The translations under genes were made by a program, and so were the position numbers. Shown piece after piece: positions 2,213 to 24,005 of a DNA stretch of 32,110 nt; position 1 is the stretch's first letter, and each line of letters starts with the position of its first letter. This DNA is from Methanoregula sp. (GTDB lineage: Archaea > Halobacteriota > Methanomicrobia > Methanomicrobiales > Methanospirillaceae), in NCBI GenBank assembly GCA_026394605.1, contig JAPKXY010000046.1, forward strand, positions 1 to 32,110, given 5' to 3'. Under the pieces are notes generated by a model, which ran no database searches, had not been told where the DNA came from, and saw only the letters and a list, made by a program, of their open reading frames with translations.

Positions 2213-2857
2213 TTACACCAGCCTCACGGGAGGACCCATCGTGGTCTTGACGTAGATCGAGCGGATGTTCAACGGACCCTGCTCGAGGACAGACTCAATC
2301 CTCTTTACGATCGTCTCGATATTCTCTGCGACCTGCTCCGGTTTCATTGTCGTGGACCCCACCTTGGTGGAAAACACTGTCTTGTCCTTGGTGCGGATCT
2401 TCACGGAGTTTCTCAGACGCTCCACGATCGGACGGATATCCATCCCGCCGGTGATCGGCATCGGCATCCTGCCCCGCGGGCCGAGCCGGGGACCTAAAAA
2501 CCTGCCGACCTGCGGCATGACTCCCGTCTCTGCAAGGAAAAACCGGTACTGTTCGGCGATCTTGCGTGCCTCACGCGGTGCGCCCCCCAGTCGCTCAATC
2601 TCTTCAGGGCCTAAAATCAGATCAACCTTCGCATCCTTTGCCTGGGTGACAATGTCCCCCTTCCCCAGCACGCAGATCCCGACATTTTCGCCGGTGCCAT
2701 TGGGGAGAAGAATCGTCTCGTCAATACGATTTTTCGGCTGCGCCATGTCGATATTCTTGAGATTGATGGTGATATCTATACTCTCAGAGAACTTACGTTT
2801 TGGCGCCTTCTCAAGAGCCGTTTTTACGGCTTCCAGAATTTTGGCCTTTTCAACCAT
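2213..2857 (-). CDS. rpl1: Ribosomal protein L1
   Basis: This is the L1-stalk protein, which moves deacylated tRNA out of the E site. In methanogens such as Methanococcus it also represses its own operon by binding mRNA. The 214-residue length is standard. The signature around residues 114-136 (GVMPQVGRFLGPRLGPRGRM) is the L1 family motif. It is the second gene of the operon, 52 bases after rpl11, and its stop abuts the rpl10 start. Whether it binds a site in this operon's leader cannot be seen directly; a stem-loop before rpl11 is listed separately. Confidence 0.97.
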   Translation of the reverse strand: MVEKAKILEAVKTALEKAPKRKFSESIDITINLKNIDMAQPKNRIDETILLPNGTGENVGICVLGKGDIVTQAKDAKVDLILGPEEIERLGGAPREARKIAEQYRFFLAETGVMPQVGRFLGPRLGPRGRMPMPITGGMDIRPIVERLRNSVKIRTKDKTVFSTKVGSTTMKPEQVAENIETIVKRIESVLEQGPLNIRSIYVKTTMGPPVRLV

Positions 2858-2909
2858 CAGCTACCTCCATAGTTCGCGACCTTTCGATCTTCTATGGGTT
2901 ATTCACAAA

Positions 2910-3386
2910 CTAGTTTGCGAGCGCGCTGTCGTACTTGCCCTCGTTGATTAAGGCAATGACTTCTTTTGGTGCCTTGCCGTCAACGGTGACGCCCAGACTC
3001 ACACAGGTGCCAAGGACCTCTTTTACCGCGGTCTTCAGCTCGTAGGAGAGCATGCCGTCCAGTTTCATTCTGGCAATCCTGACAGCGGCCTCAAATGGTA
3101 GGTTACCTACCACCTTGACGTTGGGCTCTGCGGATCCTTTCTCGATACCAGCCTCTTTTTTGATGAGCGCCGTTGTGGGCGGGACGCCCACCGTGACGGT
3201 GAACTGCTTCTTGTCGTCGACCTCGACCCTGACAGGCACCTGCATGCCATTGAATGTGCCGGTCTTCTTGTTGATCTCATCAACGACTGCTTTCACGTTG
3301 ATACCGAGTGGTCCGAGTGCAGGCCCCAGGGGGGGGCCTGCGGTCGCCTTTCCGCCGGGTACTAAAACCTCAACCACTTCTGCCAT
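2910..3386 (-). CDS. rpl11: Ribosomal protein L11
   Basis: L11 binds the GTPase-associated region of 23S rRNA with the P stalk. The 158 residues include the N-terminal Pro/Gly-rich motif ([20 protein letters not shown], about residues 9-28) that forms the switch near the factor site, and the C-terminal RNA-binding domain. The ATG at 3384-3386 is preceded by GGTGGA as a weak ribosome binding site. It is the first gene of the rpl11-rpl1-rpl10-rpl12 operon and has its own promoter. Confidence 0.97.
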
Positions 3387-4292: not shown

Positions 4293-5285
4293 TCACTTGA
4301 GAAAATCGATCTCAAACTGTTTCTGGACTTTTGGGGTAAGTTTCTCGCTCCTTCCATATATCTGTGGCGACCGTACGCCGGTCACCACCAGCAGTGTGCG
4401 CATCTTGTTCTGCATCGCGGGATCGATCTGTGCACCCCAGATGATCCGTGCGTTCGGGTCGACACGGTTGTAAACTTCCTGTATGACGCCCTCCGCCTCT
4501 TCCATCGTCATGTCAGGACCACCGACAACATTGACAAGCGCTGCAGTGGCGCCGGAAATGTCCACGTCCAGCAGCGGCGACCGGATCGCCTTTTTCACCG
4601 AGTCTGCCGCCATCGTGATCAGCTCGGTGATCCCTTTGACTGCACGCATGAGCACCTCGTCCGCCACCTTGAACGCTGCGTAGAGGGGCAGCTTTGGTAC
4701 GACCTCAAGCAGCCGGTCATTAGGCACCACAATGACCGTGTCTGCCACATCCCGCAGGCGTTCAAGACCTGCTTCCGCGTTCTCCATGCGGATGGCACCT
4801 TCCGCATTGAACGGCAGGGTAACGATCGCGATCGTCAGCGCTCCCTCTTCGCGGGCGGCTTTTGCTATCACTGGCGCACAGCCGGTGCCGGTGCCGCCGC
4901 CGAGCCCTACGGTAATGAATACCATGTCGCAGCCGGAAACCGCCCCGCGGATCTCCTGTTCGTTCTCGAGAGCCGCCTCTTCACCGATCTGGGGGATGGA
5001 ACCGGCGCCCAAGCCTCGCGTGCGCTGCCTGCCGATCAGGATACGCTGATCGGCATGGGTGCGGGCCAGGTGCTGTGCATCCGTGTTGATCGCGATCATG
5101 CGGGCGCCGTGGATCCCCTCTTCCATCATGCGGGTAATCGTGTTCGAGCCGCTGCCCCCGCAGCCGATTACGGTGATCTCGGTTTTGAGCTCGGCCAGAA
5201 TCTGGTCAAGGTCTTCATTATTCTGAGCGACGGGCGTCTTGTCGTCCCGCGCCTTGGTGAGTGCCTCTTCAACTATCGACCTCAT
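4293..5285 (-). CDS. ftsZ: Cell division protein FtsZ lacking the T7 loop region
   Basis: This is a tubulin-like GTPase forming the division ring. The nucleotide pocket is intact: GCGGSGSN (about residues 41-48), NTDAQ, GLGAGS and the tubulin signature GLGGGTGTG. The C-terminal half also looks normal ([27 protein letters not shown]). After ELIT (residue 224), however, the chain jumps straight to [15 protein letters not shown]. In FtsZ generally, and in Methanocaldococcus FtsZ1 as I recall it, about 33 residues lie here, including the NxDFADV T7 loop whose aspartates complete the GTPase site of the next subunit. The length of 330 instead of about 363 matches one in-frame loss of 99 bases. The start overlaps the dtdA stop by 4 bases. 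Either a real variant or an assembly error. Confidence 0.93.
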
Positions 5286-6595
5286 GTAATGTTCTCCAAT
5301 CCCGGGATGTGGATTCTGATCTCACTGGTACAGGACACCATTGCCGGTGTGACCACCCTGCCGCTGACCTCGACTGCCTGCCCCGCGGCCAGTGCCTTAT
5401 ACAGGGGTCCTGCCGGCACCCCCAGCATGCGTGCTTTTTGGGGGTCAAACCGGACTTTCTGTAGGATCAGGTGATCGCCGTCCCGTGCTGTGATCTCTTT
5501 AATACGTATGATTTTTACGCACAATGTATTTAAATCGTTTATTATTCGGGATGTATACTCTGCATACGTGATGAAAACCGGAAGCGGGCGATTATCGGTG
5601 CCGGACAGGTGAATAACTGGCAATCCATCGAGCCCCTGCAGAAACGCATGCTCGTCCGCCTTCAGGGTTTCAGACAAAAGGACCGTATCGATGTGTGCCG
5701 TTTCCAGCTGCCCTCCGCGTTCCATGGCGTGGACATGGCAACGGGCGCCGGCTGAAAAGGTGCCTGCCAGAACCCGGGCAGCACGATATGTCTCCCACGG
5801 GAGAGTGCCTGTATCTGAAAGCTCGGTTTCGGTAAGACGGACGATTCCGAGGGCATCCAGACGTTCAGTGAGACGATGCAGCTCCTCTTTTGTGAGTGCC
5901 TTTTTGTCAATGTATGCTGCAACCGCCCGGCTTGTTACAAGCATCATGCGGATCATCATATCGTCCAGCGAACCGACCTCGCGGGAGTGGGCGATGTGCC
6001 CGAACGCACCGCGCGAGGTGAGTGCAATTTCCGTCTGGCGGGCTGCATAATGGTTTCCTCCAAAACCGATGAGTGGAATGGCATCGGACGGAGTTGCAGC
6101 AAGCACGCTCTGCGCCACTGCCCGTCCCGCCACTTCGTCAACCCATTCCTTCTCCGTGCTGCCGATCTCGACAAAGAACGAAGGATGACGCAGGTCGGTC
6201 GGCCCGTGATGGGTGACCTCATACGATACCCGGTAATTGGCAGGGCATCGCACCGCGAGCTCCCGCAGCACTGCCTGCATCATCGCCGGTGCCGCCGGTG
6301 GGAGCGATCGTGGTCTGCCGCCCAGCTCCACCTCCCGCAGGTTGCCGGTTACGTGCACCGTCAGCACAGGCACCGGGTTGATACTCGCGTGACGCGAGAG
6401 AAAGATGATGATATCGGCACTGAGCCCGGCATCAACCCCGTCAGCATGGATGAGCCTGCTCTCAACCTCATGAAACTCGTAAATACGCCCGGTCTTCCTG
6501 ACGTCTTCACGGGACTCGTCAAGCAGCACCTCAATGCGCTTCCTGATATTGACGCCGGCTCTGTCCTGCGCGGAGTTGATGAGGGCAACCTTCAT
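5282..6595 (-). CDS. dtdA: D-aminoacyl-tRNA deacylase, archaeal GEK1 type
   Basis: It hydrolyses D-amino acids from mischarged tRNAs using zinc. I chose the ATG at 6595 ([20 protein letters not shown]), giving 437 residues, the usual family length; the upstream extension to 6673 looks non-coding. Family motifs include [20 protein letters not shown] (about residues 159-178) and [17 protein letters not shown] (about 208-224), with the conserved histidines and glutamates. It is the first gene of the dtdA-ftsZ-secE-spt5 unit. A TATA-like GCTTATTC at about 6622-6630 suggests a nearly leaderless transcript. The 3' end overlaps ftsZ by 4 bases. Confidence 0.92.
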
Positions 6596-6739
6596 TGAGA
6601 GTAGTTTGGGCAGATGCCAGAATAAGCGTACCTGATGCACGAGGGTTAGAACAACATGTGCTTTTTTGCGCATGGCGTGCTGCTATGCCCACTAAACGAT
6701 CAGTAAACACCATAAAGAAGTACACAAAATAGTGTTACC

Positions 6740-6916
6740 ATGAACAAACAGAAGATTGCAGAGATATTCAAAGAGGCAGGAATCGAGAACGAGATCAAGT
6801 GCCCGCAGGCGTTTGCGATTGCACAGAAACACAAGATCTCAAAGAAGGCGGTTGGTGATTACTGCAACAGCCACAACATCAAGATCCGCGCCTGCCAGTT
6901 AGGCTGCTTCAGATGA
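6740..6916 (+). CDS. Small four-cysteine protein coupled to moeA
   Basis: This is a 58-residue protein with ATG at 6740 and TGA at 6914-6916 that overlaps the moeA ATG by 4 bases (ATGA), so the two are translationally coupled. The middle (CPQAFAIAQKHKIS, then VGDYCNSHNIKI) reads like a helix-turn-helix or winged-helix segment. Cysteines are at 21, 42, 52 and 56, with a C-terminal CQLGCF. I do not recognise a named family. The cysteines could bind zinc or an Fe-S cluster, and the position suggests a role linked to molybdenum or tungsten cofactor supply. Both ideas are inference. Confidence 0.85.
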   Translation: MNKQKIAEIFKEAGIENEIKCPQAFAIAQKHKISKKAVGDYCNSHNIKIRACQLGCFR

Positions 6917-8118
6917 GCATTTTCCTAAAAGTCGTGCCGGTACCAGAGGCTATTGCCGCTGTTTTGCGGATCGCCCGACACCCTGTGAATGAGACCGTCA
7001 CGCTGGAAGGAGCGGGTGGTCGTGTGCTCGCCGAAGACGTGCGTGCAGACGCCGATATCCCCGGCTTTGACCGGACAGTTGTGGACGGGTTCGCGGTTCG
7101 GGCTTCGGATACTACCGGTGCCGGTGAAGCGATCCCGGCGATGCTGCGCGTTAAAGGCAGGGTCGAAATGGGCAGCGCGGCACCCGCACCGATCCGCCCT
7201 GGTGAATCGATCTATGTACCTACAGGTGCTGTACTGCCCGTCGGAGCGAATGCAGTGGTTATGGTCGAGAACACCGAAATGGCAGGCGGTGAAGTGCTGA
7301 TTAAGAAACCGGCGGCGCACGGGGAGAATGTCCTTCTGCATGACGAGGATTTCTCCCGAACTGACCTGGTGCTCGCCAGGGGAAGGCGGCTTTTTGCGCA
7401 GGAGATCGGCATGCTTGCCGCGGTGGGGTGCAATAACGTCCCGGTCTTCGGAATACCGATTATCGGTGTAATCTCAACAGGTAACGAGCTCGTGCCGGTG
7501 ACCCGGGTCCCGGATTCAGGGCAGGTGCGGGACAGCAACTCTTTCATGATCGGGGCGTTTGTGAGGGAGCACGGGTGCACGCCGAAGTATTATGGCGTTG
7601 TCAGGGATGACCGCAATGCCCTCCGTGCAACCTTCAGGCGGGCAGTCGCCGAGTGCAACGCAGTCCTTATCTCCGGGGGCAGCTCAAAGGACGAAAGGGA
7701 TATGGCTGCCTCCCTGATAACCGAACTGGGCGAGGTGATCATTCACGGTATTGCAATCGCGCCGGGTAAACCCACGATCATCGGGCGTGCCGGCACAACG
7801 CCCGTCATCGGGCTCCCCGGACATCCGGCATCGGCATTCATCGTCCTTGTCGCGATCGTCCGCCACCTGCTCAATGCGATGACAGGCGATGCACATCCCA
7901 GAGAGATGAGAGTACCTGCACGACTCTCGCAGAACGTCCCCTCGCCCAAGGGCAGGGAGGATTATGTCCGGGTGCGGCTGGATGCTGGTGTGGCGACCCC
8001 ACTGTTTGGCAAGTCCGGGCTGCTCAACACGCTGGTGAAAAGCAACGGCGTTATCCGCATCCCGGCAGAGAGTGAGGGGCTTGAAGCCGGCGCAGAGGTT
8101 GAGGTGTGGCTGTGGTGA
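6913..8118 (+). CDS. moeA: Molybdopterin molybdenumtransferase MoeA
   Basis: MoeA inserts molybdate or tungstate into adenylylated molybdopterin. It is 401 residues, normal for the family. Visible motifs are DRTVVDGFAV (about residues 54-63), PTGAVLPVGANAVV, VISTGNEL near 190-197, SGGSSKDERD near 254-263, and GLPGHPASAF near 300-309. Domain IV fills the last 75 residues. Methanogens need this cofactor for formylmethanofuran and formate dehydrogenases. The gene is coupled upstream to the small Cys protein and downstream to a second moeA by overlapping codons. Confidence 0.95.
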   Translation: MSIFLKVVPVPEAIAAVLRIARHPVNETVTLEGAGGRVLAEDVRADADIPGFDRTVVDGFAVRASDTTGAGEAIPAMLRVKGRVEMGSAAPAPIRPGESIYVPTGAVLPVGANAVVMVENTEMAGGEVLIKKPAAHGENVLLHDEDFSRTDLVLARGRRLFAQEIGMLAAVGCNNVPVFGIPIIGVISTGNELVPVTRVPDSGQVRDSNSFMIGAFVREHGCTPKYYGVVRDDRNALRATFRRAVAECNAVLISGGSSKDERDMAASLITELGEVIIHGIAIAPGKPTIIGRAGTTPVIGLPGHPASAFIVLVAIVRHLLNAMTGDAHPREMRVPARLSQNVPSPKGREDYVRVRLDAGVATPLFGKSGLLNTLVKSNGVIRIPAESEGLEAGAEVEVWLW

Positions 8119-9968
8119 AGAGGTACCTCAGGGTCACGTCTCTGGACACGGTGCACGACATATTACACAAGGAGTTTGCGTGCACGCCATCAGTTGAACA
8201 GGTGCAGCTTGAGGATGCGGCCGGGCGGATCACTGCCGCCCCCGTTTTCGCACGCTACTCGGTGCCTGAGATCCACCTTGCCGCAATGGACGGTATTGCA
8301 GTGAATAGCGAGGATACGGCAGGGGCAGGTGAGCAGCGCCCGGTGACGCTCCCGCATGCGGTGCGGGTAAACACGGGCAATATTGTCCCGCCAGCATACG
8401 ACGCGGTGATTATGATCGAGGACGTGTGGATCGACGGTGACCGGTTCACGATCCGGAAATCCGCCGCTCCATGGCAGCACGTCCGCCCGGCAGGTGAGGA
8501 TATTGCGGAGTCTGAGATGGTGCTTCCTTCACGGCACCGGATCCGTCCCCACGAGCTGGGTGCGCTCGCAGCATATGGAATAACCGAAATTGACGTGCTT
8601 GCCGTCCAAGTCGGGCTGATCCCGACAGGCAGCGAACTGGTGGCGCACGGGCAGCTCCCCGCACCGGGGCAGGTGGTGGAGAGCAACACAGTGATGGCAG
8701 CGGCGATGCTCTCTGAACTGGGCGCCACCTGCACGCGGTACCCGATGGTGAAAGACGACCCTGCACTCATCCGCGATACGGTACAGCGTGCGGTGGCGGC
8801 AAACGACATTGTCATCATCTCAGCCGGTTCATCAGCAGGCACGCGGGACTTCACCGCTGATGTCATCGCGGAGCTTGGCGAAGTGCTCGTCCACGGGATC
8901 TCGATCAAGCCGGGCAAGCCGGCAATTATCGGGAGGGTTGCCGGAAAGCCGGTGATCGGGATGCCGGGCTACCCGCTCTCGGCGCTCACGGTTGTGCGCG
9001 AGATCGCGGCACCGCTGCTCTCGCGCTACGGGCTTCCTATACCGGAACCTGAGACCATCGAAGCGCAGATTACCTCCACGATCCACAAGGAGATCGGCAC
9101 CGATGAGTTCGTGCTCTGTGCGCTCGGCAGGGTCGGTGACCGCTGGGTGGTCTCACCCCAGTCCCGCGGTGCCGGTGTGCAGATGAGCGCGGTGCGGGCA
9201 AACGCGTACTTGAACGTGCCTGCAAATATGGAAGGCTATGAAGCAGGCGAGTGTGTGCCGGTCCGGCGTATGGTGGGGCAGCGCGAGGCGGAACAGGCGC
9301 TGCTTATTACCGGCAGCCACGACCCGGTGATCGATTATCTCTCCGACATTATGAGCCGGAAAGGTATCGACCTCCACTCCACGCATGCCGGCAGCATGGG
9401 CGGCATCCTTGCGTTAAAGAAGGATGAGTGTCATGCGGCGCCCATGCACCTGCTCGCTCCTGACGGGAGCTACAACACGGAATACCTGAAGAAATTTTTG
9501 CCGGGCGAGGATCTTATTCTGCTCTGCGTAGCGGGCAGGCAGCAGGGGGTTGTTTCACGGGACGGCATCACGTTCGGTGAGCTCCCCACACACACGTTCA
9601 TCAACCGGCAGAAGGGTTCCGGTACCCGGATGCTGCTCGACTTTGAGCTGAAAAAAGTAGGGATTGACCCCCCATGCATCCACGGTTACGAGCGCGAGGT
9701 GACCACGCACCTTGCCGTGGCACTTGCGGTGAAATCCGGCGAGGCTGAAGCGGGTATGTGCGTGTATAGCGCTGCACGGGCGCTTGGCCTTTCGTTCGTT
9801 GCGGTGGCACAGGAGCGGTACGAGCTCGCGATCCGTAAGAAATATCTCAAAGATACAAGGGTGGCAGCGCTCTGCGACACCATCGCTTCCCCTGATTTTA
9901 AGGAAATTCTGGGCCGGCTGGGGGGCTACGATACGAAGGAAACAGGCGTGTGGCACGTACTGCCATGA
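8106..9968 (+). CDS. MoeA fused to a periplasmic-binding-protein-like domain
   Basis: Residues 1 to about 395 are a second MoeA (AAMDGIAVNSEDT, GSSAGTRDF, GMPGYPLSAL). From about residue 398 a LysR-substrate-binding/PBP-like domain follows (LLITGSHDPVIDYLSDIM, HLLAPDGSYN, GSGTRMLLDFELKKVGI, ending GGYDTKETGVWHVLP). This fusion is known in archaea and some bacteria, where the extra domain is presumed to sense molybdate, tungstate or a cofactor intermediate. GTG at 8106, 8112 and 8115 are all possible starts. I favour 8115, which gives a GTGA overlap with moeA and a GAGGTG ribosome binding site at 8101-8106. Two paralogues in one operon may separate Mo from W insertion (inference). Confidence 0.93.
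   Translation: MAVVKRYLRVTSLDTVHDILHKEFACTPSVEQVQLEDAAGRITAAPVFARYSVPEIHLAAMDGIAVNSEDTAGAGEQRPVTLPHAVRVNTGNIVPPAYDAVIMIEDVWIDGDRFTIRKSAAPWQHVRPAGEDIAESEMVLPSRHRIRPHELGALAAYGITEIDVLAVQVGLIPTGSELVAHGQLPAPGQVVESNTVMAAAMLSELGATCTRYPMVKDDPALIRDTVQRAVAANDIVIISAGSSAGTRDFTADVIAELGEVLVHGISIKPGKPAIIGRVAGKPVIGMPGYPLSALTVVREIAAPLLSRYGLPIPEPETIEAQITSTIHKEIGTDEFVLCALGRVGDRWVVSPQSRGAGVQMSAVRANAYLNVPANMEGYEAGECVPVRRMVGQREAEQALLITGSHDPVIDYLSDIMSRKGIDLHSTHAGSMGGILALKKDECHAAPMHLLAPDGSYNTEYLKKFLPGEDLILLCVAGRQQGVVSRDGITFGELPTHTFINRQKGSGTRMLLDFELKKVGIDPPCIHGYEREVTTHLAVALAVKSGEAEAGMCVYSAARALGLSFVAVAQERYELAIRKKYLKDTRVAALCDTIASPDFKEILGRLGGYDTKETGVWHVLP
9920..9968 (+). repeat. Direct repeat copy 1 (3' end of moeA fusion)
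   Basis: The last 49 bases of the moeA fusion recur at 12181-12229. The first 20 bases are identical and 43 of 49 match overall by hand alignment. This is the copy inside the intact gene. Confidence 0.8.
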
Positions 9969-10038
9969 ACACTCACTGCATGGTGTCTTCTCCAGCGGGT
10001 ACAGAGAATTCGGGGGAAATCATCATATTAATATTACA

Positions 10039-10083
10039 ATGAACCAATATGAGCACATATCAAGGATGAGTGCGGTGGTATAA
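10039..10083 (+). other. Possible short upstream open frame
   Basis: A 14-codon frame (MNQYEHISRMSAVV) begins at an ATG at 10039 and stops two bases before the GTG start of the REC-PAS gene. An AT-rich TATA-like block (CATATTAATATTAC) lies at about 10024-10037. If transcription starts upstream of 10039 this could be a leader peptide or coupling frame. If the TATA block is the promoter, it would not be fully transcribed. Confidence 0.25.
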
Positions 10084-10085
10084 AG

Positions 10086-11891
10086 GTGGCTGTCAATGAT
10101 GCAATATCCCTCTTGGTTGTTGACGATGAAGCCAACATTCTTATGGCGTTCCAGAACTATCTGGAAAAAGATCCCGAGTTCACCGTCACGATATGTCCAA
10201 GCGCAGAAGAGGCACTGGAACTACTCGCTACACACCAATTCGATGTGATCATTTCAGACGTTGCAATGCCGAATATGGACGGCATTGCCTTTCTTCGCGA
10301 AGTCCGTGCCCGTGACAGCCCCGCCATCTTTGTCGTGATAACAGGAAAACGCCTCGCCCATATTGCGATCGATGCTATTAACGCAGGTGCGGATTACTAT
10401 GTCCAGAAGGGCAGCGATTTTCTGCAGGATATCAAAAAACTGCTGGACTATGTTCGCGTTGCCGTCCCCAAACAGCGTGCTCTGAGAGAGCTGCAGAACA
10501 AGAGTGATGTCTTCCAATCCAAAATGGGCAACCAGACCGACATTTTCTGCCAGTTCTCACCAGATGGTACCATTAAGCTTGCCAACACCCTGTACTCTCA
10601 GTTTATCGGGGCAACGGAGGAAGCGGTTCCCGGTAGCAACTTTTTTTTCCTTGTTCCTGATGCTGAGCGCACCACGGTCCTCAACCATCTAAAGACGCTC
10701 TCCCCCGCGCTTCCCGGCATAATTCTCGAACACCATGTAGTAACCGGTGACGGATCCTCCCGGCTGCTCCAGTGGCACTATCAGATTATTCCCGGAGACA
10801 ATGGGCGCATCGCGGGATACCAGGCTTCCGGTAGGGAGACTGACAACATTGTGCGTATTGGCATGGAAAAACCAGTTGCATCCGTGCAGCGGCCACAGGA
10901 ACCGGTATCCCCGAAAAAAGGGACGGTAATCATTAACAAGGCACCGGTAATCAAATCAGAACCTGCCCCTACCCCTGCACCAACTCCTGCAGGGCCGCCT
11001 TCAGCCGATGCCACACCCAATGACCGCAGGATGATCGATGAAACTATCAACGGGCTCGATAACCCGGTCTTTGCTATCGATAAAAACGGGGTGGTGATCG
11101 CATGGAACAATGCAATCGAGCAGTTAACCGGCATTGAGAAAAAATCCATTATCGGCCGGGGCAATTATGCGTACTCGCTGCCCTTTTACGGTAAGCCTGT
11201 CCCGATGCTGATCGACTATATCTTCAGCCCGCCCACCAGCTCACGCCCGGGAAGTGTCGAGTTTAAAAGAATGGGTGACACATACATTGGCGACACGGAA
11301 AATATCATGATTAAGGGCAAACCCATGCTCCTGTGGGGCAAGGTCACTGCTGCATATAATGCGAAAGGTTCACTCATTGCAGCGGTTGAATTCATCACCG
11401 TTGCTGAACCCGAGAGGAAAGGGCGAGTGGAGGACGAAAAATATATCGGCGGTATATCAAGCCTTACGCTCAAGGTTTCCGCCGGAGACGGGCTGAGCGG
11501 CTCCATTGTGGGTGCAATAGGGGCGAATTCGGGTGGCTATGGTATCTACGCGACCACAACGCGGGTGTTTGTGATCTACAACCCTGAACTCGATGTTGCA
11601 AATCCCTATGCTGTCAAGTTCGGCACGTTCATCATGAGCGAATTCTTCGGGACTCTGATCGATACAAGCCCGCGTTCTATCGCTTCCCTTGAACAGTCCC
11701 ATATTTTTGAAGCGGCCAAAGACACTCTTGCTGCCATTGAACTCAAGAAGCCGGTGATGCTCTCCGGATTCGTAACGTTCCGGACAAAAACCAGCGGGTC
11801 GCTCCGGGTCTACATCGACCATAAGAAGTCATATGTCCAGATAGAGGAACTGATGAAGGCATTCTCGCCGGAAATCGTTCGTATCGATTGA
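10086..11891 (+). CDS. Response regulator with two PAS domains and an uncharacterised C-terminal domain
   Basis: This 601-residue protein starts at GTG. A receiver domain (about residues 7-125) has the acidic pair in LLVVDDEAN, phosphoacceptor D58 in IISDVAMPNMDG, and the lysine in VITGK. A PAS domain follows at about 150-260, then a Pro/Ala-rich linker (APTPAPTPAGPP, about 294-312), then a second PAS at about 317-440 (GLDNPVFAIDKNGVVIAWNN). No histidine kinase or DNA-binding domain is present. The last ~150 residues (GGYGIYATTTRVFVIYNPEL to SPEIVRID) are a mixed alpha/beta domain I cannot name, possibly PH-like. The gene sits between two copies of the moeA-fusion 3' end. Confidence 0.85.
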   Translation: MAVNDAISLLVVDDEANILMAFQNYLEKDPEFTVTICPSAEEALELLATHQFDVIISDVAMPNMDGIAFLREVRARDSPAIFVVITGKRLAHIAIDAINAGADYYVQKGSDFLQDIKKLLDYVRVAVPKQRALRELQNKSDVFQSKMGNQTDIFCQFSPDGTIKLANTLYSQFIGATEEAVPGSNFFFLVPDAERTTVLNHLKTLSPALPGIILEHHVVTGDGSSRLLQWHYQIIPGDNGRIAGYQASGRETDNIVRIGMEKPVASVQRPQEPVSPKKGTVIINKAPVIKSEPAPTPAPTPAGPPSADATPNDRRMIDETINGLDNPVFAIDKNGVVIAWNNAIEQLTGIEKKSIIGRGNYAYSLPFYGKPVPMLIDYIFSPPTSSRPGSVEFKRMGDTYIGDTENIMIKGKPMLLWGKVTAAYNAKGSLIAAVEFITVAEPERKGRVEDEKYIGGISSLTLKVSAGDGLSGSIVGAIGANSGGYGIYATTTRVFVIYNPELDVANPYAVKFGTFIMSEFFGTLIDTSPRSIASLEQSHIFEAAKDTLAAIELKKPVMLSGFVTFRTKTSGSLRVYIDHKKSYVQIEELMKAFSPEIVRID

Positions 11892-12180
11892 GTTTCTGGT
11901 TGTATTCCTTGTGTAAAACTTTTTTAAAATTGTAACGTGAGCACCGGTAATCTTCCTGCTCCTGTTTTAACCCTGTGTTCTGGCTTACCGCCACCAGTTG
12001 CAGTTCGGTCCTCTTTTCGATTGCATACCGGAGACCTGACCGCCCGATACCGGAACCTGTTGCACAACGGTGCGGCATCTGGTCCCCCCGCTCTGCGGCA
12101 TTTCGTTGAGTGTCATACCGCGAACCTCCAAACCCGTACATGCCCGCATTTCTGTCATTTACGAAAATCCCTTCGGGTCC
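11892..12180. other. Intergenic stretch after REC-PAS gene
   Basis: There is a T run (TTTTTT) near 11921-11926, a likely terminator for the REC-PAS gene. The remainder up to the SLOG stop (12159) has no supported gene, and the small open frames across it are unremarkable. It ends at the moeA-tail remnant. Confidence 0.4.
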
Positions 12181-12641
12181 GGGGGGCTACGATACGAAGG
12201 TGACAGGCGAGCGGCGCGCACTGCCATGACCACCGTCTCCTCGGGTGTTGCACATTTGAAAACGCCCTCAATATCCCAGGTTTTGTAGCCGAAGACCGGC
12301 TTTTTGAGTTTTAACGCGATCGCAATCTCGGAAAGCGTGCCATACTTCCCCCCGATCGCGATCACCGCATCTGCAGACTGGACCAGCACAACGTTGCGGG
12401 AATAACCCATGGCGGTTCTTACACGGACATCGAGATACGGGTTGCCATCCCCCATATCGGGGAGGATGCCCACAGTTCTCCCATCCTGCTCCTTTGCCCC
12501 TTTGCACGCCGCCTCCATCACGCCCCCCATGCCGCCGCAGATGATGATCTCGTGGTTTGCTGCAATCAGGTAGCCTACATCCTGCGCCGCTGTGTATTCC
12601 TCCGGCGAGCAGTCACCGGCGCCGATCACTGCGATCTGCAT
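12159..12641 (-). CDS. SLOG/lysine-decarboxylase-like Rossmann nucleotide-binding protein
   Basis: This is a 160-residue protein of the TIGR00725-like group of the SLOG superfamily. Start ATG 12641 (MQIAVIGAGDCSPEEY) has GGAG just upstream, so I prefer it to 12665. The signature ICGGMGGVMEAACKGA (about residues 34-49) and the GGKYGTLSEIA motif (about 95-105) form the nucleotide-sugar or phosphate pocket. The precise ligand is not known from sequence. The C-terminal ~22 residues (ARLSPSYRSPPDPKGFS region) are encoded antisense to the moeA-tail copy and do not look like a conserved family end. Confidence 0.85.
   Translation of the reverse strand: MQIAVIGAGDCSPEEYTAAQDVGYLIAANHEIIICGGMGGVMEAACKGAKEQDGRTVGILPDMGDGNPYLDVRVRTAMGYSRNVVLVQSADAVIAIGGKYGTLSEIAIALKLKKPVFGYKTWDIEGVFKCATPEETVVMAVRAARLSPSYRSPPDPKGFS
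12181..12229 (+). pseudogene. Orphan copy of the moeA-fusion 3' end
   Basis: In the plus frame this reads GGYDTKVTGERRALP and a TGA stop, matching the genuine moeA-fusion end GGYDTKETGVWHVLP. At DNA level 43 of 49 positions match 9920-9968. Upstream of 12181 similarity fades (NPFGS versus ILGRL). It is entirely antisense to the 3' end of the SLOG gene. The copy is either the scar of a tandem duplication or the mark of an insertion carrying the REC-PAS gene. Confidence 0.75.
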
Positions 12642-12718
12642 ACTACTCCATCGGGGAGCAGACATAAAGAGCTGCCCGATCAGGCCACGATAATTACTTT
12701 GTCCAGTGGCACCAACAT

Positions 12719-12763
12719 TTTTTAATACACTCGGGCATCCCGTCCAGCATACAGAGGGATTAC
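12719..12763 (+). promoter_or_regulatory. ileS promoter and ribosome binding site
   Basis: A TATA-like TTTTTAATACAC lies at about 12719-12730. GAGGGA at 12754-12759 is spaced 4 bases from the GTG at 12764 and fixes that start. Confidence 0.5.
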
Positions 12764-15700
12764 GTGAAGGAAGTCACCGCCAACTTTGACTTAAAAGGCA
12801 TCGAGCACGGGGTGAGAGTATACTGGCGCACCAACGACACCTATGCGAAAGTAAAAGAACTGCGCAAGTATGGCAGACCGTTCTTTTTTGTCGATGGCCC
12901 GCCGTATACCACCGGGAACATCCATCTCGGCACTGCGTGGAACAAGATCATCAAAGACAGCATCCTCCGGTATTACCGGATGAACGGTAGGGATGTAATT
13001 GACCGTGCGGGTTATGATATGCACGGGCTGCCCATTGAAGTCAAGGTGGAAAAAGAGCTGGGTTTTACGTCCAAAAAAGACATCGAGACGTTCGGCATCC
13101 AGCCGTTCATCGAAAAGTGCCGGGAGTTCGCCATCAGGAACAAACTGCTCATGGACGACCAGTTCGCAAACCTCGGTGTCTGGCTCGACTTTGCCAACGC
13201 CTACCAGACTGTAGAACCCCAGTACATCGAGGCGGCGTGGTGGACGCTCGCCCGCGCTGATGAGAAGGGGATGCTGGAACGCGGGTACCGGGTCGTGAAC
13301 TGGTGCCCCCGGTGCGAGACGGCAATTGCTGATGCTGAGGTGGAGTACTGGGACGAGACCGACCCCTCGATCTTTGTCAAGTTCCCGCTCAAAAGAGAGG
13401 AGAATGAATACCTCGTCATCTGGACGACGACGCCATGGACACTGCCGGCAAACGTTGCTGTTGCAGTTTCAAAGGACTTCATCTACGCAAAGGTCAGGGC
13501 AGTCAAGGACGACAACGAGGAGATCCTCTGGATTGCTGATGACCTTGTTGAGAGCGTGCTTAAGAAAGGGCGGTACAAGGATTACACGGTACTTGACCGG
13601 CAGCCCGGCTCCATGCTTCTGGGCCGGGAGTACGACTCCCCGCTCGCAGATTTCGTCCCGCTCCAGAAGGAGATCCGGCACCGTGTCGTACCCGCAGAGT
13701 TTGTCGCTATGGAGAACACCGGCATGGTACACATCGCCCCCGGGCACGGGTGGGACGACTTCGTGCTGGGTGCACGGGAAGGACTCGCCGTCGTCTGCCC
13801 GGTGGATGGCGCCGGGTGCTTCAAGGACGAAGCGGGGAGATTTGCCGGTATGTTCGTCAAGGATGCGGATGCGGACGTGCTCGCAGCACTTGGCGACAAC
13901 CTGATGGCAAAAACATCAGTCGTCCACCGGTACGGGCACTGCTGGCGCTGCAAGACCCCGATCATCTACCGTGCCACCTCCCAGTGGTTCATCAAGGCGG
14001 CGGAGATGCGCGACAGGATGCTTGACGAGGTCGCGGCGGTCACGTGGTATCCCGAGTGGGCGGGCAGCGCCCGGTTCTACGACTGGATCAAGGAAGCCCG
14101 TGACTGGTGCATCTCACGCCAGCGGTACTGGGGCATCCCAATCCCGGTCTGGGTCTGCCCTAAATGCGATACGTATCGCGTTTTTGGTTCGATTAAAAAC
14201 CTCGAACAGGAGAGCGGCAAACCCCTCAGGGATCCCCACCGCCCGTATGTGGACAGCATAACTGTCCCCTGCACCTGCGGCGGGACGATGAAGCGGGTGG
14301 AAGACATCTTCGATGTCTGGTTCGATTCGGCAGTTGCATCGTGGGCGACACTCGGGTATCCGGGGAACACGAAGGAATTCGAAAAGCTCTGGCCTGCAGA
14401 GTTCATAACCGAGGGGCAGGACCAGACACGGGGCTGGTTCTACTCTCAGCTGGGTGCGAGCACGGTCGCGTTCGGGAAAGCACCCTACAAAAGCGTGCTC
14501 ATGCATGGATTCGCGCTCGATGCCGAGGGCAAGAAGATGTCCAAGAGTTTTGGGAACGTTGTCACGCCCGAGGAGGTCATTGCAAAGGTTGGCGTGGATG
14601 TGCTCCGGCTCTACGTGCTCTCTTCCTCAGCCCCGTGGGACGACCTGAAGTTCAACTGGGAGGGTGTCTCGACCATCAACCGTGCGGCAAACATCCTCTG
14701 GAACGTGTACCGGTTCCCGCTTCCGTACATGATCCTTGACAGATTTGAACCGGCGTCCGCTGGCGGCGTCTGGGACGGAAGTTACGTTGCGTTACATATC
14801 AACACCATGCCGGACGAGGACCGCTGGATTATTTCCCGGATGAACTCGCTTGCAGTGCAGGTGAACGCTGCGATGAGGGAGTACCAGCTCCACCATGCGA
14901 CGCGGGCGCTTACGGCCTTTATCCTTGAAGACCTTTCGCGCTGGTACGTCCAGCTCGTCCGCCCCCGCATGTGGCTTGAGGGAGAATCCGCAAGCAAGGT
15001 CTTTGCCTACGAGACGATGTACTTCGTGCTGCGCCGGCTGATGGGACTCCTTGCGCCATTTGCCCCACACCTTACAGAAGAGATTTACGCAAACCTCCGG
15101 TGCCCACACGATCCGGAGAGTGTGCACATGCTTGACTGGTTCTCAGGCGATGCAACCCTCGTGAACGCGGAACTTGAGGCCGCGATGGAAAGTGTCCGCT
15201 CGTTTGACGACGCGGTGGCAAACGCACGTCAGGCGGGGAAGCGCAAGCTCCGGTGGCCGGTTGCGGAAGTCGTTGTCATCACTGGTTCGGAGCGGGTGGC
15301 AACCGCGGTCAGCCGGTTGAACACGGTCTGTATGGACCGTGCCAATGCACGGAAGGTCACTGTTGTGACAGGCATGTGGGACCGGGTCCGGTGGCAGGCG
15401 GTGCCGGTGATGAAGGCGCTCGGGCCCGCGTTTGGCAGGAACTCCCCGAAGGTCAAGGCGCTCATTGAAGCAGCTGACGGCTCGAATCTCAAAAAGGAGA
15501 TCGAAGCGGGCATGACGGTAACCCTCACGGATGCCTCGGGCAGCTACGATGTCGGTGCGCAGCATGTCACATTTGCCGAGAAGATGCCGGAGAACGTCTT
15601 CTCCGCTCCGATGCAGGACGCGACTGTGTACGTGGACGTTCAGCTGACAGAGGAACTCAGGAGAGAGGGCTATACCCGGGAAGTGATCCGCAGGATTCAG

Positions 15701-15976
15701 GAGATGCGCCGTCAGCTCGATCTTGCGGTGGAAGATTTCATTAAAGTAGAGGTATTGATTAATGATTTTGAGGTCTTTTCCCTACTCAATCAACAGAAAG
15801 TTGGATTGGAAATTGTAGAGAAAATAATTGCGGAAGAGGTCCGAGCGATAACTCCCCACGGGGCCCTTTTTTCGTTTTTAAAACCAGGGGAAAAGATGAG
15901 AGATCATGAACAAAAAACAGAATGGGATGTGGAGGGCGTGCAGATGACGATTGGGGTCTCACGCGCCGGGGATTAA
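12764..15976 (+). CDS. ileS: Isoleucyl-tRNA synthetase
   Basis: It charges tRNA-Ile and edits misactivated valine. The 1070-residue class I enzyme starts at GTG 12764. The HIGH motif variant HLGT is at residues 54-57 within PPYTTGNIHLGTAW, the editing domain (CP1) lies at about 200-400 (TTPWTLPANVAVAV), and KMSKS is at about 591-595. A zinc-site set appears as CPKCDTY and CTCGGTM. The anticodon-binding helical domain fills 640-830, with a long C-terminal extension after it. The 3' end overlaps the convergent Thg1-like gene by 18 bases. Confidence 0.97.
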   Translation: MKEVTANFDLKGIEHGVRVYWRTNDTYAKVKELRKYGRPFFFVDGPPYTTGNIHLGTAWNKIIKDSILRYYRMNGRDVIDRAGYDMHGLPIEVKVEKELGFTSKKDIETFGIQPFIEKCREFAIRNKLLMDDQFANLGVWLDFANAYQTVEPQYIEAAWWTLARADEKGMLERGYRVVNWCPRCETAIADAEVEYWDETDPSIFVKFPLKREENEYLVIWTTTPWTLPANVAVAVSKDFIYAKVRAVKDDNEEILWIADDLVESVLKKGRYKDYTVLDRQPGSMLLGREYDSPLADFVPLQKEIRHRVVPAEFVAMENTGMVHIAPGHGWDDFVLGAREGLAVVCPVDGAGCFKDEAGRFAGMFVKDADADVLAALGDNLMAKTSVVHRYGHCWRCKTPIIYRATSQWFIKAAEMRDRMLDEVAAVTWYPEWAGSARFYDWIKEARDWCISRQRYWGIPIPVWVCPKCDTYRVFGSIKNLEQESGKPLRDPHRPYVDSITVPCTCGGTMKRVEDIFDVWFDSAVASWATLGYPGNTKEFEKLWPAEFITEGQDQTRGWFYSQLGASTVAFGKAPYKSVLMHGFALDAEGKKMSKSFGNVVTPEEVIAKVGVDVLRLYVLSSSAPWDDLKFNWEGVSTINRAANILWNVYRFPLPYMILDRFEPASAGGVWDGSYVALHINTMPDEDRWIISRMNSLAVQVNAAMREYQLHHATRALTAFILEDLSRWYVQLVRPRMWLEGESASKVFAYETMYFVLRRLMGLLAPFAPHLTEEIYANLRCPHDPESVHMLDWFSGDATLVNAELEAAMESVRSFDDAVANARQAGKRKLRWPVAEVVVITGSERVATAVSRLNTVCMDRANARKVTVVTGMWDRVRWQAVPVMKALGPAFGRNSPKVKALIEAADGSNLKKEIEAGMTVTLTDASGSYDVGAQHVTFAEKMPENVFSAPMQDATVYVDVQLTEELRREGYTREVIRRIQEMRRQLDLAVEDFIKVEVLINDFEVFSLLNQQKVGLEIVEKIIAEEVRAITPHGALFSFLKPGEKMRDHEQKTEWDVEGVQMTIGVSRAGD

Positions 15977-16690
15977 CGATCGTAAGAATTTCTGCCCTTC
16001 TGGCGAGGAGAAGAGGGGCAGATTGTTGTCGATGGTGACGCTGGTTCGTATCGCTTTTACTTTTTCTTTTGTCATGGGATTGAACCCTTCCTTTTCTGCG
16101 GTTTTTTTGTATACAAGAACGCCCCGGCGCTGCCACGCCGGTGTCCTTGCGAGGTTGACGCCCCGGGCGTGCATCAGCTCGTGCATCTCGGGAGACGGCA
16201 TGCCCTTCAGCCGGGCTGCCGCCTGCCGGGGTTTCATGCCATCCGAAATGAGCGCCTGCTGGCAGTAGGCGTTCAGGTGATTGCGCCATGCCTCATCCTG
16301 CCGGTGTACGAGGTACCCGACCGCATACGCGGGCGTCGCGGGGATAACCCGGGAGTCAAAGGCGACCGGTTCGGCGCATTCCAGCGCAAGGGTGAGCGCA
16401 CTTGCTGCAAACGAGGCGGCGACAGAGTCGATCTTTTCCACTCTTCCCGAGAACGGGAGTTTTGTGATATACAGGCTGATCTCATCGGAGAACGTGAATG
16501 CAAACTCAGGGGAGAGCCCGCTGTCGGCAACAAGGGAGCGGCAGACTGCAGACATCGCATGGGAGAACCGAACATCGAATGGTTTTACAAACCCGAGCAT
16601 GTGGGCGAGCCGGTGGAACGCCCTGCCGTCAAGGCGTACAATGACCGGGGGGACAGTAGTGATCGCTGCAAAGAGTTCGCGGTTTTCCAT
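15959..16690 (-). CDS. tRNA(His) guanylyltransferase Thg1-like protein
   Basis: Thg1-family enzymes add nucleotides in the 3'-5' direction; archaeal members mainly repair or complete the 5' end of tRNAs. The 243-residue protein has the metal-binding aspartates in VRLDGRAFH (D21) and FTFSDEIS (D69), a fold shared with polymerase palm domains. The downstream segment GVNLARTPAWQRRGVLVYKK is typical of the family's C-terminal part. It is convergent with ileS, with an 18-base overlap of coding ends. Confidence 0.9.
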   Translation of the reverse strand: MENRELFAAITTVPPVIVRLDGRAFHRLAHMLGFVKPFDVRFSHAMSAVCRSLVADSGLSPEFAFTFSDEISLYITKLPFSGRVEKIDSVAASFAASALTLALECAEPVAFDSRVIPATPAYAVGYLVHRQDEAWRNHLNAYCQQALISDGMKPRQAAARLKGMPSPEMHELMHARGVNLARTPAWQRRGVLVYKKTAEKEGFNPMTKEKVKAIRTSVTIDNNLPLFSSPEGQKFLRSLIPGA

Positions 16691-16753
16691 ACGGCAACCA
16701 GAGCGGTCGGGAGAAAAAAAAAAGAGGCGGAGTATCGTGCCTGCCGGTAAAAC

Positions 16754-17017
16754 TTACTCCATCGGCGCTGCCGAGGTGAATGCTCCGGGCAGGTGGCGGA
16801 TCAGGACGATATCGTCAATCGCGCTGATGATGCGGTACGGGATCTTTATGCCCTTGAAGTTTTTCAAATCAACCAGCTGATCGTTTACTTTGCCGACGAC
16901 GATCGCTTCCATTTTCTTCTGGTCCACATCCATGATGACATCCTCGACTTCCCCGACAAACATGCCCTTGTCAGTGTAGATCAGAAGCCCGAACAGCTCT
17001 GTAATCTGGGTCTGCAT
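16754..17017 (-). CDS. PRC-barrel domain protein
   Basis: The 87-residue protein is essentially one PRC-barrel (ELFGLLIYTDKGMFVGEVED at residues 7-26, then IKIPYRIISAIDDIVLI). PRC-barrels are small beta-barrels found in photosynthetic reaction centre H subunits, RimM and many archaeal short proteins; the archaeal role is poorly defined and sometimes linked to CdvB or FtsZ-type division. It is divergent from the site-2 protease gene and shares the 17032-17046 promoter region. Confidence 0.85.
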   Translation of the reverse strand: MQTQITELFGLLIYTDKGMFVGEVEDVIMDVDQKKMEAIVVGKVNDQLVDLKNFKGIKIPYRIISAIDDIVLIRHLPGAFTSAAPME

Positions 17018-17031
17018 CGCTATCAGATGAA

Positions 17032-17046
17032 AGTATATACTATAAT
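17032..17046. promoter_or_regulatory. Shared divergent TATA region
   Basis: AGTATATACT at 17032-17041 is a perfect palindrome, followed by ATAATGG. It lies about 30 bases before the site-2 protease ATG and about 15-25 before the PRC-barrel ATG on the other strand. Both transcripts would be nearly leaderless. Confidence 0.45.
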
Positions 17047-17070
17047 GGTTAAAAAGATAATCCTTTCATA

Positions 17071-18204
17071 ATGAACGGGTCGTTTCGGATCGGGCGTATT
17101 TTTGGCATTCCTGTCCTGATACACTTCACGTTTCTTTTAGTAATCCCGCTCTTTGCCTTTATCATCGCGAGCCAGATCGTTACGACGGCAGATCTCGTCG
17201 CCGAGATCTACACCGTCCCCATTGACATGTCACTCATCACCGCCGGATACATGCCGTACGTGCTCGGGACGGTAATTTCGTTCGGGCTCTTCGCGGGCGT
17301 GCTTGTCCATGAGCTCGCCCATTCACTCGTTGCACGGCAGAGCGGGATCAGGATCAACAGCATTACGCTGCTTATTTTCGGCGGTGTCGCATCCATGGAG
17401 GAGGCGCTCCCCGACCCGTTCGTGGAGCTTCCGATGGCGCTCATCGGCCCGGTGACGAGCCTTTTTGTCGGGCTTGTGTGCAGCGGGCTGGTCTACCTGA
17501 CCGGTTCGATCGTAAAGGATCCCGGTGCCGGGGGTCTTTTTATCTTTATGTTCGGTTACCTTGGCGTGCTCAATATCATCCTGTTCGCCTTCAACCTGCT
17601 GCCCGCGTTCCCCATGGACGGCGGCAGGGTGCTGAGAGCGTGGCTGGCGAAAAGGATGCCCCTGCACCGCGCCACGCGGATCGCTGCGGATGTCGGCAAG
17701 GGCTTTGCGGTCGTCTTCGGGCTCATCGGAATCGTCTTTTTGAACCCGCTGCTGCTCATCATCGCGTTCTTCATCTACACCGGCGCGAGCCAAGAGACCG
17801 TTGCGGTGAAGTACAGCGTGCTCCTGCAGGATATAAAGGTGGGAAGTATCATGAGCGCTCCCGTGATGACGGTGGCACCCACACTTCCGGTCACCAGGGT
17901 TATCGAGATGATGTATGCAACCAAACACCTCGGTTTCCCGGTTGTCGACCATGACATGCTTGTCGGGATGGTGACGGTTGCGGATGTGCAGAAGATGTCA
18001 CCGATCGACCGCGACGCGATGCAGGTGCGGGACGTGATGAGCCGGAACGTGGTCGTGGTGTCACCAGACACGCCGGTGACCGATGTACTCCGGATCATGT
18101 CGGCAAAAGACATCGGGCGGGTGCCGGTGGCCGATACCGGGAAGCTGGTCGGAATCGTGACACGCACGGACATTCTCAAGGTCGTCGAGTTAAAAGAAAT
18201 GTAA
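17071..18204 (+). CDS. Site-2 protease family (M50) metalloprotease with CBS pair
   Basis: This is an intramembrane zinc protease. Hydrophobic segments fill residues 12-35 and 60-240. The zinc motif is HELAH at 80-84 (VLVHELAHSLVARQSG), and the third ligand is D183 in NLLPAFPMDGGRVLRAW. Two CBS motifs follow at about 258-377 (VGSIMSAPVMTVAPTL, then VRDVMSRNVVVVSPDT), probably sensing adenosine nucleotides and gating activity. This S2P-CBS architecture is common in archaea. The substrate is unknown. The start at 17071 lies about 30 bases downstream of a TATA box. Confidence 0.92.
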   Translation: MNGSFRIGRIFGIPVLIHFTFLLVIPLFAFIIASQIVTTADLVAEIYTVPIDMSLITAGYMPYVLGTVISFGLFAGVLVHELAHSLVARQSGIRINSITLLIFGGVASMEEALPDPFVELPMALIGPVTSLFVGLVCSGLVYLTGSIVKDPGAGGLFIFMFGYLGVLNIILFAFNLLPAFPMDGGRVLRAWLAKRMPLHRATRIAADVGKGFAVVFGLIGIVFLNPLLLIIAFFIYTGASQETVAVKYSVLLQDIKVGSIMSAPVMTVAPTLPVTRVIEMMYATKHLGFPVVDHDMLVGMVTVADVQKMSPIDRDAMQVRDVMSRNVVVVSPDTPVTDVLRIMSAKDIGRVPVADTGKLVGIVTRTDILKVVELKEM

Positions 18205-18280
18205 CTCCGCGGGCAGTTACTGCAATTGAGCGGGCAGCACGCAGTCCAATCATTTTATTCCAGAGATCGGGAAACACCCC

Positions 18281-18295
18281 GAATCTTTATACCAT
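18281..18295 (+). promoter_or_regulatory. Promoter of flavin reductase-like gene
   Basis: A TATA-like ATCTTTATACC at about 18281-18291 would start transcription near 18315, giving a leader of about 30 bases and supporting the ATG at 18344 rather than one further upstream. Confidence 0.4.
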
Positions 18296-18343
18296 CCTGC
18301 AGACAAGTTGGGAGTGACTCAAAACACAGCCGGTGAAATACCT

Positions 18344-18910
18344 ATGGAAAAAGTCAGTATTCCTTCCAATTTCTTCATCCCCATGCCGGTTATGCTGGTG
18401 GGGACTCTGGTCAACGGAAAAGCAAATTTCATGACCGCAGGGTGGTGCTCCCGGGCAAATGCGAACCCGCCGATGATACTCTGCGGCATCAATAAGGCTC
18501 ACTTCACATCACAGGGAATCAGAGATACAAGGACATTCTCGCTTAATATCCCGTCCTCTGATCTTGTGGAGAAGACCGATTATTGCGGACTGGTGTCCGG
18601 AAAAACTGTGGACAAGGCAAAGATCTTTGACGTATTCTATGGAGCGCTCAGGACCGCGCCGATGATCAGGGAATGCCCCGTCAACCTTGAATGCCGGCTT
18701 ATCCAGACCGTAGAACTGCCAACGAACTATCTCTTTATTGGTGAGATTGCCGGGGCGTTTGCCGGGGCGGCGTTCATCAAAGACGGGAAACCCGATTTCA
18801 GGGCAATCGACCCGCTGCTGCTGACGATGCCCGACAACAGCTACTGGAAGCTGGGGGAATATATCGGGAACGCGTGGGGGATCGGAGCGAAGCTGAAGAA
18901 GGGAGGGTAA
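18344..18910 (+). CDS. Flavin reductase-like FMN-binding protein
   Basis: The 188-residue split-barrel flavoprotein belongs to the flavin reductase/flavoredoxin group. I chose ATG 18344 (MEKVSIPSNFFIPMPVMLVG), which has GGTGA eight bases upstream. The phosphate-binding stretch FMTAGWCSRANANPPMILCG (about residues 29-48) and SLNIPSSDLVEKTDYCGLVSG (about 67-87) are characteristic. Family members in methanogens carry electrons or bind FMN, but the partner is not evident from the neighbours. Confidence 0.88.
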   Translation: MEKVSIPSNFFIPMPVMLVGTLVNGKANFMTAGWCSRANANPPMILCGINKAHFTSQGIRDTRTFSLNIPSSDLVEKTDYCGLVSGKTVDKAKIFDVFYGALRTAPMIRECPVNLECRLIQTVELPTNYLFIGEIAGAFAGAAFIKDGKPDFRAIDPLLLTMPDNSYWKLGEYIGNAWGIGAKLKKGG

Positions 18911-18915
18911 ACCCT

Positions 18916-20559: not shown

Positions 20560-21169
20560 GCCCGATCAGCCCGAGCAGGTGTTTTGCCCAGAACAGTTTT
20601 CCCCGCTTTATCGGGTCGACGCTCGTATCATCGAGATCAAAGCCGATGATCGTAATCCCGTTTGCGCCAAGCTCATCGGCGGCAAAGACCGCACGGTCGC
20701 CATCCGAGAACCCGCCGAAATTGTGCACATGTGGGAGCGGCACTGCCTGCGTAGTGGCGACCACGGGCCCGGGGAAGCGTGGCACCCAGTGGCGCAGCAG
20801 CGGCATGTTGTCGCCATGCGCATGGACAACGATGACCGTGCCTTCACGGTTCATATCAATGAACCGGTCGGTCGCCCCGTCAAGGTCGGAAAAGATCGCA
20901 TCGGGCTGGACTCTGTAATCGCAGAGCACCTCCGCAGCTGCGTCCGCAGCAAAGACCGGGCCAGTGATTTTTCCAAGCTCGTTCTTCAGGCACGGGGCGT
21001 TGCCACAGACAGTGACGTGCCGCCCGTTGCAGAGCGATGCGAGGAGCGGGAGATCGTCGCGGGGCAGCAGCGATGCGAGGAGGTGCGCTGCCTCCTCATC
21101 GAGTGCCCGGTCAAAGCCGAAATAGTCGAGGATGGCGAGGTAGTGGGGCTCCCAGTCTGCAAACCGCAT
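20549..21169 (-). CDS. mptE: 6-hydroxymethyl-7,8-dihydropterin pyrophosphokinase MptE
   Basis: It transfers pyrophosphate from ATP to hydroxymethyl-dihydropterin in tetrahydromethanopterin synthesis, the archaeal counterpart of FolK. ATG 21169 (MRFADWEPHY) gives 206 residues. The start is one base after the upstream stop and has GAGG before it; the open frame extending to 21421 is only antisense-free overlap with the upstream gene. DUF115-type motifs are VCGNAPCLKNEL, FSDLDG and VHAHGDN, the acidic residues probably binding Mg-ATP. It is the middle gene of a three-gene minus-strand unit. Confidence 0.9.
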   Translation of the reverse strand: MRFADWEPHYLAILDYFGFDRALDEEAAHLLASLLPRDDLPLLASLCNGRHVTVCGNAPCLKNELGKITGPVFAADAAAEVLCDYRVQPDAIFSDLDGATDRFIDMNREGTVIVVHAHGDNMPLLRHWVPRFPGPVVATTQAVPLPHVHNFGGFSDGDRAVFAADELGANGITIIGFDLDDTSVDPIKRGKLFWAKHLLGLIGHEC

Positions 21170-21170
21170 C

Positions 21171-22628: not shown

Positions 22629-22754
22629 GTAAGAAAGATGTCGGCGTCCATCATATTAAGGGATTGCAGAAGTTGCAGAAGATGGCAGGGAGAAAAGAGA
22701 ATCTCTGCTCGAAACCTTTATTCAGGATAGGTAACCACATTATTAGGTCTAAGT

Positions 22755-22827: not shown

Positions 22828-22844
22828 TTTTTTTTGATTTTTTT
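22828..22844 (+). terminator. Oligo-T terminator after tRNA-Lys
   Basis: Two runs of 8 and 7 Ts directly follow the tRNA. Confidence 0.7.
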
Positions 22845-23891: not shown

Positions 23892-24005
23892 GGAATGGAA
23901 ACAAGGACGGGGACTGGTTATCCGGCACCTTGCGAAGGATTCAACCAAAACCTGTATGCTCTGGTTTCAACAAATATTTCGTCTCGTACCACAACACTCA
24001 TCTTA

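Follow-up and report, generated by a model that had tools for sequence, protein, structure and literature searches.

How a regulator gene came to lie between two convergent genes that both end in the same short stretch of DNA, leaving each of them whole, is the question raised by a locus of Methanoregula sp. The locus sits in a window of 32,110 nt, the entire stretch of DNA analysed here, which is one whole contig (C42) of a 60-contig, metagenome-type assembly that is 91.67% complete. On the plus strand, moeA2 (8106-9968) encodes MoeA fused to a C-terminal PBP-like domain (Pfam MoeA_N, MoCF_biosynth, MoeA_C and PBP_like). It is followed on the same strand by a 601-aa gene, here called REC-PAS (10086-11891), for a response-regulator receiver with two PAS-like regions (Pfam Response_reg, PAS and PAS_4; homologs); a Pfam search gave no match for the C-terminal part of this protein. 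Convergent to moeA2, on the minus strand, is a 168-aa SLOG cluster4 gene (LDcluster4; 12159-12665; PF18306, E 1.5e-43). The intergenic stretch behind it (12666-12763) aligns with its counterpart in congener G014 (79% over 81 nt), shows no sign of insertion, and leads to the right-hand synteny anchor on the plus strand (12764-15976), which is named isoleucyl-tRNA synthetase, ileS, by its position and family (Pfam class I tRNA synthetase; synteny).

The end of moeA2 recurs as the end of the SLOG gene

Comparison of the window with itself indicated that 9920-9972 recurs as a direct repeat at 12181-12233, with 46 of 53 bases identical (86.8%, E 4e-11). A sequence-only reading of this DNA had already claimed that the end of the moeA fusion recurs at 12181-12229; that repeat is real, and the match runs on to the 53-nt limits given here. 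Similarity beyond the 49 bases first noticed is possible, being firm from 12181 and weak back to 12158 or 12146. When aligned in frame, the repeat takes a 71-nt form, 9898-9968 on the moeA side (T1, plus strand, firm core 9920-9972) and 12159-12229 on the SLOG side (T2, minus strand, firm core 12181-12233), in which 54 of 71 bases agree; the next-best place in the window on either strand reaches 33 of 71. The repeat alignment scored 84, a value reached by none of 200 dinucleotide-preserving shuffles of 9700-10085 (maximum 41), and a search of all 60 contigs with 9890-9975 as query (E≤0.001) returned the T1 and T2 places only. The two copies differ at 7 of the 53 core positions, and their longest exactly identical run is 20 bases.

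The second copy is coding sequence. It had been described as GGYDTKVTGERRALP and a stop with nothing coding in front, which is true of the plus strand, where the peptide is present and no moeA coding sequence lies ahead of it, but the copy is not idle on the minus strand, where it forms the 3' end of the SLOG gene with the stop at 12159-12161.

The site is empty and the two genes overlap in relatives

We searched 108 genomes of the family and matched SLOG in 80 and the C-terminal part of moeA2 in 100. Pairs were counted from the best matches for 93 of the 100 moeA2-matching genomes, of which 77 had both genes, 55 had them on the same contig and 49 had them within 5 kb. In 43 of these 49 pairs the matches overlap, in five they are 4-10 nt apart, and in the window genome they are 2196 nt apart. 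The two genes lie on different contigs in 22 further genomes and far apart on one contig in six, which offer no comparable junction. The orthologous site is thus empty in all 48 of the other neighbouring pairs, and with at most 10 nt between matches these pairs bear out the proposal that the ancestral moeA fusion ran straight into the convergent SLOG gene. What is unusual in the window genome is only the separation of the pair; both host genes match their families well there. The gene order ftsZ, dtdA, moeA1, moeA2, SLOG, ileS, thg1 is common to many of the relatives' loci that were fetched.

In every one of the 22 relatives' junctions that were read, the 3' ends of moeA2 and SLOG overlap, by 29-89 nt as measured to the first SLOG stop: 71 nt in 13 junctions, 35 nt in three, 29 nt in three, and 38, 62 and 89 nt in one each. 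Only one copy of the repeat is present at the empty site: G013, G015 and G016 each gave one match (DNA search, E≤0.01), and the junctions of G011 and G014, missed by that search, proved single when read directly. The synteny check that the sequence-only reading had set, namely relatives with moeA2 beside SLOG, no REC-PAS gene between them and a single tail, was therefore passed. These relatives are different species, each represented by one genome, with about 66-89% nucleotide identity to the window over longer segments.

To delimit what was doubled, we used a profile of five congener junctions (G011 and G013-G016). The window matched columns 36-612 of this profile on the moeA side and columns 520-1019 on the SLOG side, so its two halves tile a single junction, of which up to 93 columns are doubled, and everything else in the insert is new. 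The 53-nt core is the sure minimum of the doubled stretch, and the 93 columns are its maximum. Taken with the empty site in the other pairs, this supports the earlier suggestions that a 2.2-kb segment with the regulator gene came between later and that a tail was left with both gene ends.

The copies have since diverged. Of the 14 changes in T2, 12 fall within the first 22 of its 71 positions, which leaves the position of its left edge uncertain, so that perhaps fewer than 71 nt were doubled. In its core, T2 differs from the majority ancestor by two substitutions, at positions 43 and 52 of the 71, both silent in SLOG and both altering moeA, as would be expected if T2 now serves SLOG only. The shift in constraint is not a clean one, as T1 has five changes, three of which alter moeA and three of which alter SLOG. 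Relative to the same ancestor, T1 and T2 have no derived base in common within the core, which makes the insertion event look old and its traces faded; outside the core there is one such base (position 8), also found in G011.

The insert carries a regulator gene of distinct composition

The insert (9973-12157) matches the congener junction profile at its edges only, with the left edge at 9973-9977 and the right edge between 12145 and 12180. It is also distinct in composition: REC-PAS has a GC of 0.51 and a GC3 of 0.58, compared to 0.57-0.61 and 0.63-0.76 in the eleven other genes listed for 4293-22628, and GC is 0.42 in the leader (9969-10085) and 0.52 in the downstream stretch (11892-12157). 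An Eco57I-like gene elsewhere in the window shares the REC-PAS level (GC 0.51), and its own neighbours are lower, at 0.33-0.39. Shuffle-tested alignment and the junction profile revealed no other moeA2 or SLOG remnants in the insert. Rfam at gathering scores had no match in 9800-12800, and a scan for consensus promoters and terminators, designed for bacterial promoters and applied here to an archaeal host, returned counts no higher than in shuffles.

At E≤1e-60, REC-PAS had no match in any of seven congeners, with up to seven candidates scored per genome, and weaker matches were found elsewhere in congeners G012, G013 and G014. Among 232 genomes of the order, 16 have homologs at this threshold, namely the window genome and 15 others that all belong to one genus (g11) of the same family. 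At E≤1e-30, seven of 392 genomes drawn from the phylum had a match, five of them in g11 and one in g16, the seventh being the window genome itself. REC-PAS is 37-49% identical to 11 full-length homologs, which suggests either an unsampled source or an old gene. A homolog lies at the 5' side of SLOG, and divergent from it, in G035, G038 and G066; in G046 and G033, it lies between dtdA and ileS, and SLOG was not found there. The homologs in five genomes of another genus are thus at the very same locus, a coincidence of place that a simple or random insertion leaves unexplained.

We considered several known kinds of element. REC-PAS is the only ORF of the insert with Pfam matches, five further ORFs of 88-132 aa having none, and no transposase gene was found in it; the 1.2-kb flanks of REC-PAS share no inverted match that could represent terminal inverted repeats. 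The insert does not belong with transposons or insertion sequences on these grounds. Nor does it resemble an integrase-borne element at a gene 3' end, given that no integrase match was found in the insert (an integrase may have been lost) and that the sole tRNA found in the window lies at 22754-22828, away from the site. There is also little sign that the REC-PAS family is itself mobile: direct repeats bracket two of the 18 REC-PAS genes with enough flank, out of 19 examined.

One insertion probably doubled the overlap

We consider it likely that one insertion doubled the moeA2/SLOG overlap and kept both genes whole. In the ancestor, moeA2 and SLOG would have been convergent with overlapping 3' ends, the 71-nt form corresponding to the last 22 moeA2 codons and the stop and, read on the opposite strand, to the end of SLOG. 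A segment of some 2.2 kb that held REC-PAS with its own flanks would then have inserted in the overlap and doubled roughly 53-93 bp of its target. With one copy retained by each gene, neither protein would have been cut, and the overlap would have dissolved. The most likely route would be offset single-strand breaks in the overlap, followed by filling in of both sides and joining of the foreign DNA. The survival of both repeat copies would be explained by the tail being coding sequence of two overlapping genes: an insertion without doubling would truncate at least one gene, and it may be mainly the doubled outcome that could be kept. What we infer from the layout, known with the insert from a single genome, is that there was one event, that the break was of this kind and that selection retained both copies. 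The congener tree is poorly resolved at the position of the window.

Single-crossover integration would be a different route to the same product. Circular DNA with REC-PAS and a copy of the moeA/SLOG junction would have recombined and left the junction on both sides. The same layout would result, insertion of a circle was put forward for Arabidopsis genes that have genic direct repeats on either side (PMC2869330, in the portion available), and REC-PAS does adjoin SLOG in G035, G038 and G066. We nevertheless judge this route improbable. The common stretch is short, at most about 93 columns; the moeA2 match and SLOG lie on different contigs in all three of those genomes; and the dtdA-SLOG-REC-PAS stretch of G035 and G038 has no moeA2, so that no donor is seen with the junction next to REC-PAS. 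An imported SLOG flank, which the 97% identity of T2 to G016 over 60 nt had suggested, was dropped, as the SLOG gene is 76-91% identical to five congeners by segment, an ordinary level with no sign of import. Sequence this old would look alike after offset breaks and after a crossover with a circle.

Less probable again is a tandem duplication of a tail-SLOG-REC-PAS block followed by loss of the first SLOG and the second REC-PAS. Such a history would account for order and strand, REC-PAS being divergent and 5' of SLOG in G035, G038 and G066, and the window REC-PAS groups weakly with the locus-linked homologs in the tree (78/80). We disfavour it because the expected remnants were not found, though faded ones could be missed: the best alignment to SLOG between T1 and REC-PAS had a score reached by 30 of 200 shuffles, and that to REC-PAS between SLOG and ileS by 12 of 200. 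Moreover, the short SLOG/ileS spacer can be aligned with its counterpart in G014, a genome in which REC-PAS had no match at E≤1e-60, and no REC-PAS homolog at this threshold is present among the ORFs in the congeners' SLOG-ileS gaps.

Finally, an assembly chimera, in which sequences lying apart in the cell's genome were joined into one contig, might be suspected from a 60-contig, incomplete assembly and a layout seen once, but it is very unlikely, since each repeat copy fits its own gene and the copies differ as described, their 20-base exact run being short for an assembler to join on.

Other bracketed genes in the family

Direct repeats between 1.2-kb flanks were found for 10 of 428 ORFs (at least 150 aa, 58 loci) and inverted repeats for one of 428. 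This sample is not random, as the window alone gives four of the ten and the loci include some chosen for REC-PAS or SLOG, some of them mutually overlapping; two of the ten (L049) are apparently paralogs. Several individual cases were observed. A 94-nt repeat holding the SLOG start and the SLOG/ileS spacer (L033 8225-8317 and 10649-10742, 78%) flanks a phosphorylase-like gene that lies between SLOG and ileS in G013. A REC-PAS-type gene of G047 lies between the copies of a 520-nt repeat (L100 4091-4604 and 6331-6844, 90%) that overlaps the neighbouring genes, which we take to be ribosomal stalk protein genes; the 3' end of the bracketed gene itself recurs upstream (2731-3021 and 5975-6265, 88%). 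A gene 3' end, presumably that of Spt5, recurs 0.84 kb downstream in G059 (L106 6154-6273 and 6993-7114, 92%), and the copies of a 323-nt repeat without a long open frame (L044 3-323 and 1579-1901, 83%) enclose a 182-aa ORF in G044. The SLOG/ileS spacer in 17 loci from relatives is filled by differing kinds of ORF and ranges from about 0.1 to over 8 kb, and it looks like an insertion hotspot.

Tails of an Eco57I-like gene form array-like series

The 3' end of the Eco57I-like restriction-modification gene (23895-27134) recurs in the window without the gene, always on the same strand. Tail copies lie at 26953-27131, 28136-28314 and 30176-30354, with fragments at 28819-28855 and 31022-31052, and the genes among them, which are defence-like, are a 270-aa ORF without Pfam match, HEPN, DUF5677 and a HicB-like/HicA pair. 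Array-like series in which the tail alternates with other genes were also seen in relatives (L158 6138-13672, L159 7311-10898, L160 3638-10519 and L162 1330-3225; also L161, L163, L164 and L165). Their cargo includes RhuM in L158 and Schlafen AlbA_2 in L159, both by Pfam, and HicA in L158; L159 also has a PIN match below cut-off; similar ORFs elsewhere were judged by eye. Tail DNA had matches at E≤1e-5 in 45 of the 108 family genomes, at least some of them at intact genes. Some orphan tail copies contain an inserted hairpin stretch (window 28100-28175 and 30140-30205; L159 near 10640-10740; also L160, L163 and L164). The DNA fold z-scores of the two inserted stretches in the window are -2.3 and -3.9, compared to 0.1 for the gene's own tail, which lacks the insertion.

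We tentatively raise the possibility, which we hold to be doubtful, that this family has repeatedly gained genes by insertion with doubling of the end of a neighbouring gene, with the arrays of Eco57I-like tails and defence-like genes as the accumulated product and with cassettes later shuffled through recombination between tails. If so, the moeA/REC-PAS case would be a single-step instance of such gain.

Comparison with known systems

The two host genes belong to known families, SLOG cluster4 (PF18306) and MoeA with a PBP-like domain (PF12727), and the window genes match both well. A search of titles and abstract openings, with most subscription journals outside its scope, returned no description of a convergent overlap doubled by insertion. 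The closest parallel is insertion with long target duplication, described in Helicobacter pylori strains (Nobusato et al., 2000, as cited in PMC1643837 and PMC3031569) and, according to the available portions of the latter two, frequently associated with restriction-modification genes. As in those cases, comparison of related genomes revealed an extra gene together with a long direct duplication of its target: the insert is absent from the orthologous site in 48 of 48 relatives, the flanking direct repeat is long (87% identity over 53 nt, with an extent of up to 93 columns possible), and it is single at the empty site. The present case departs from what is described in those portions in several ways: its host is an archaeon, the extra gene encodes a regulator and not a restriction-modification function, the target is a coding overlap between convergent genes, and the genomes compared belong to different species and not to strains of one. 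The transposed genes of Arabidopsis are similar in that they lie between direct repeats whose sequence, mostly genic, is that of the target site itself; circle formation and insertion were proposed for them. They differ in being from a plant, and no gene overlap is mentioned in the available part of that source (PMC2869330).

The doubling of a common stretch would mean that a tightly packed, overlapping gene pair can be separated without breaking either member, and the case, along with the other genes found between repeats, would make it possible to count how often such insertions occur in one archaeal family and what they target. With its enzymology still putative, the window case appears to work like insertion with long target duplication; it would be an archaeal member with a coding overlap as target, and an example from outside the bacterial restriction-modification genes to which the available accounts tie such insertions.
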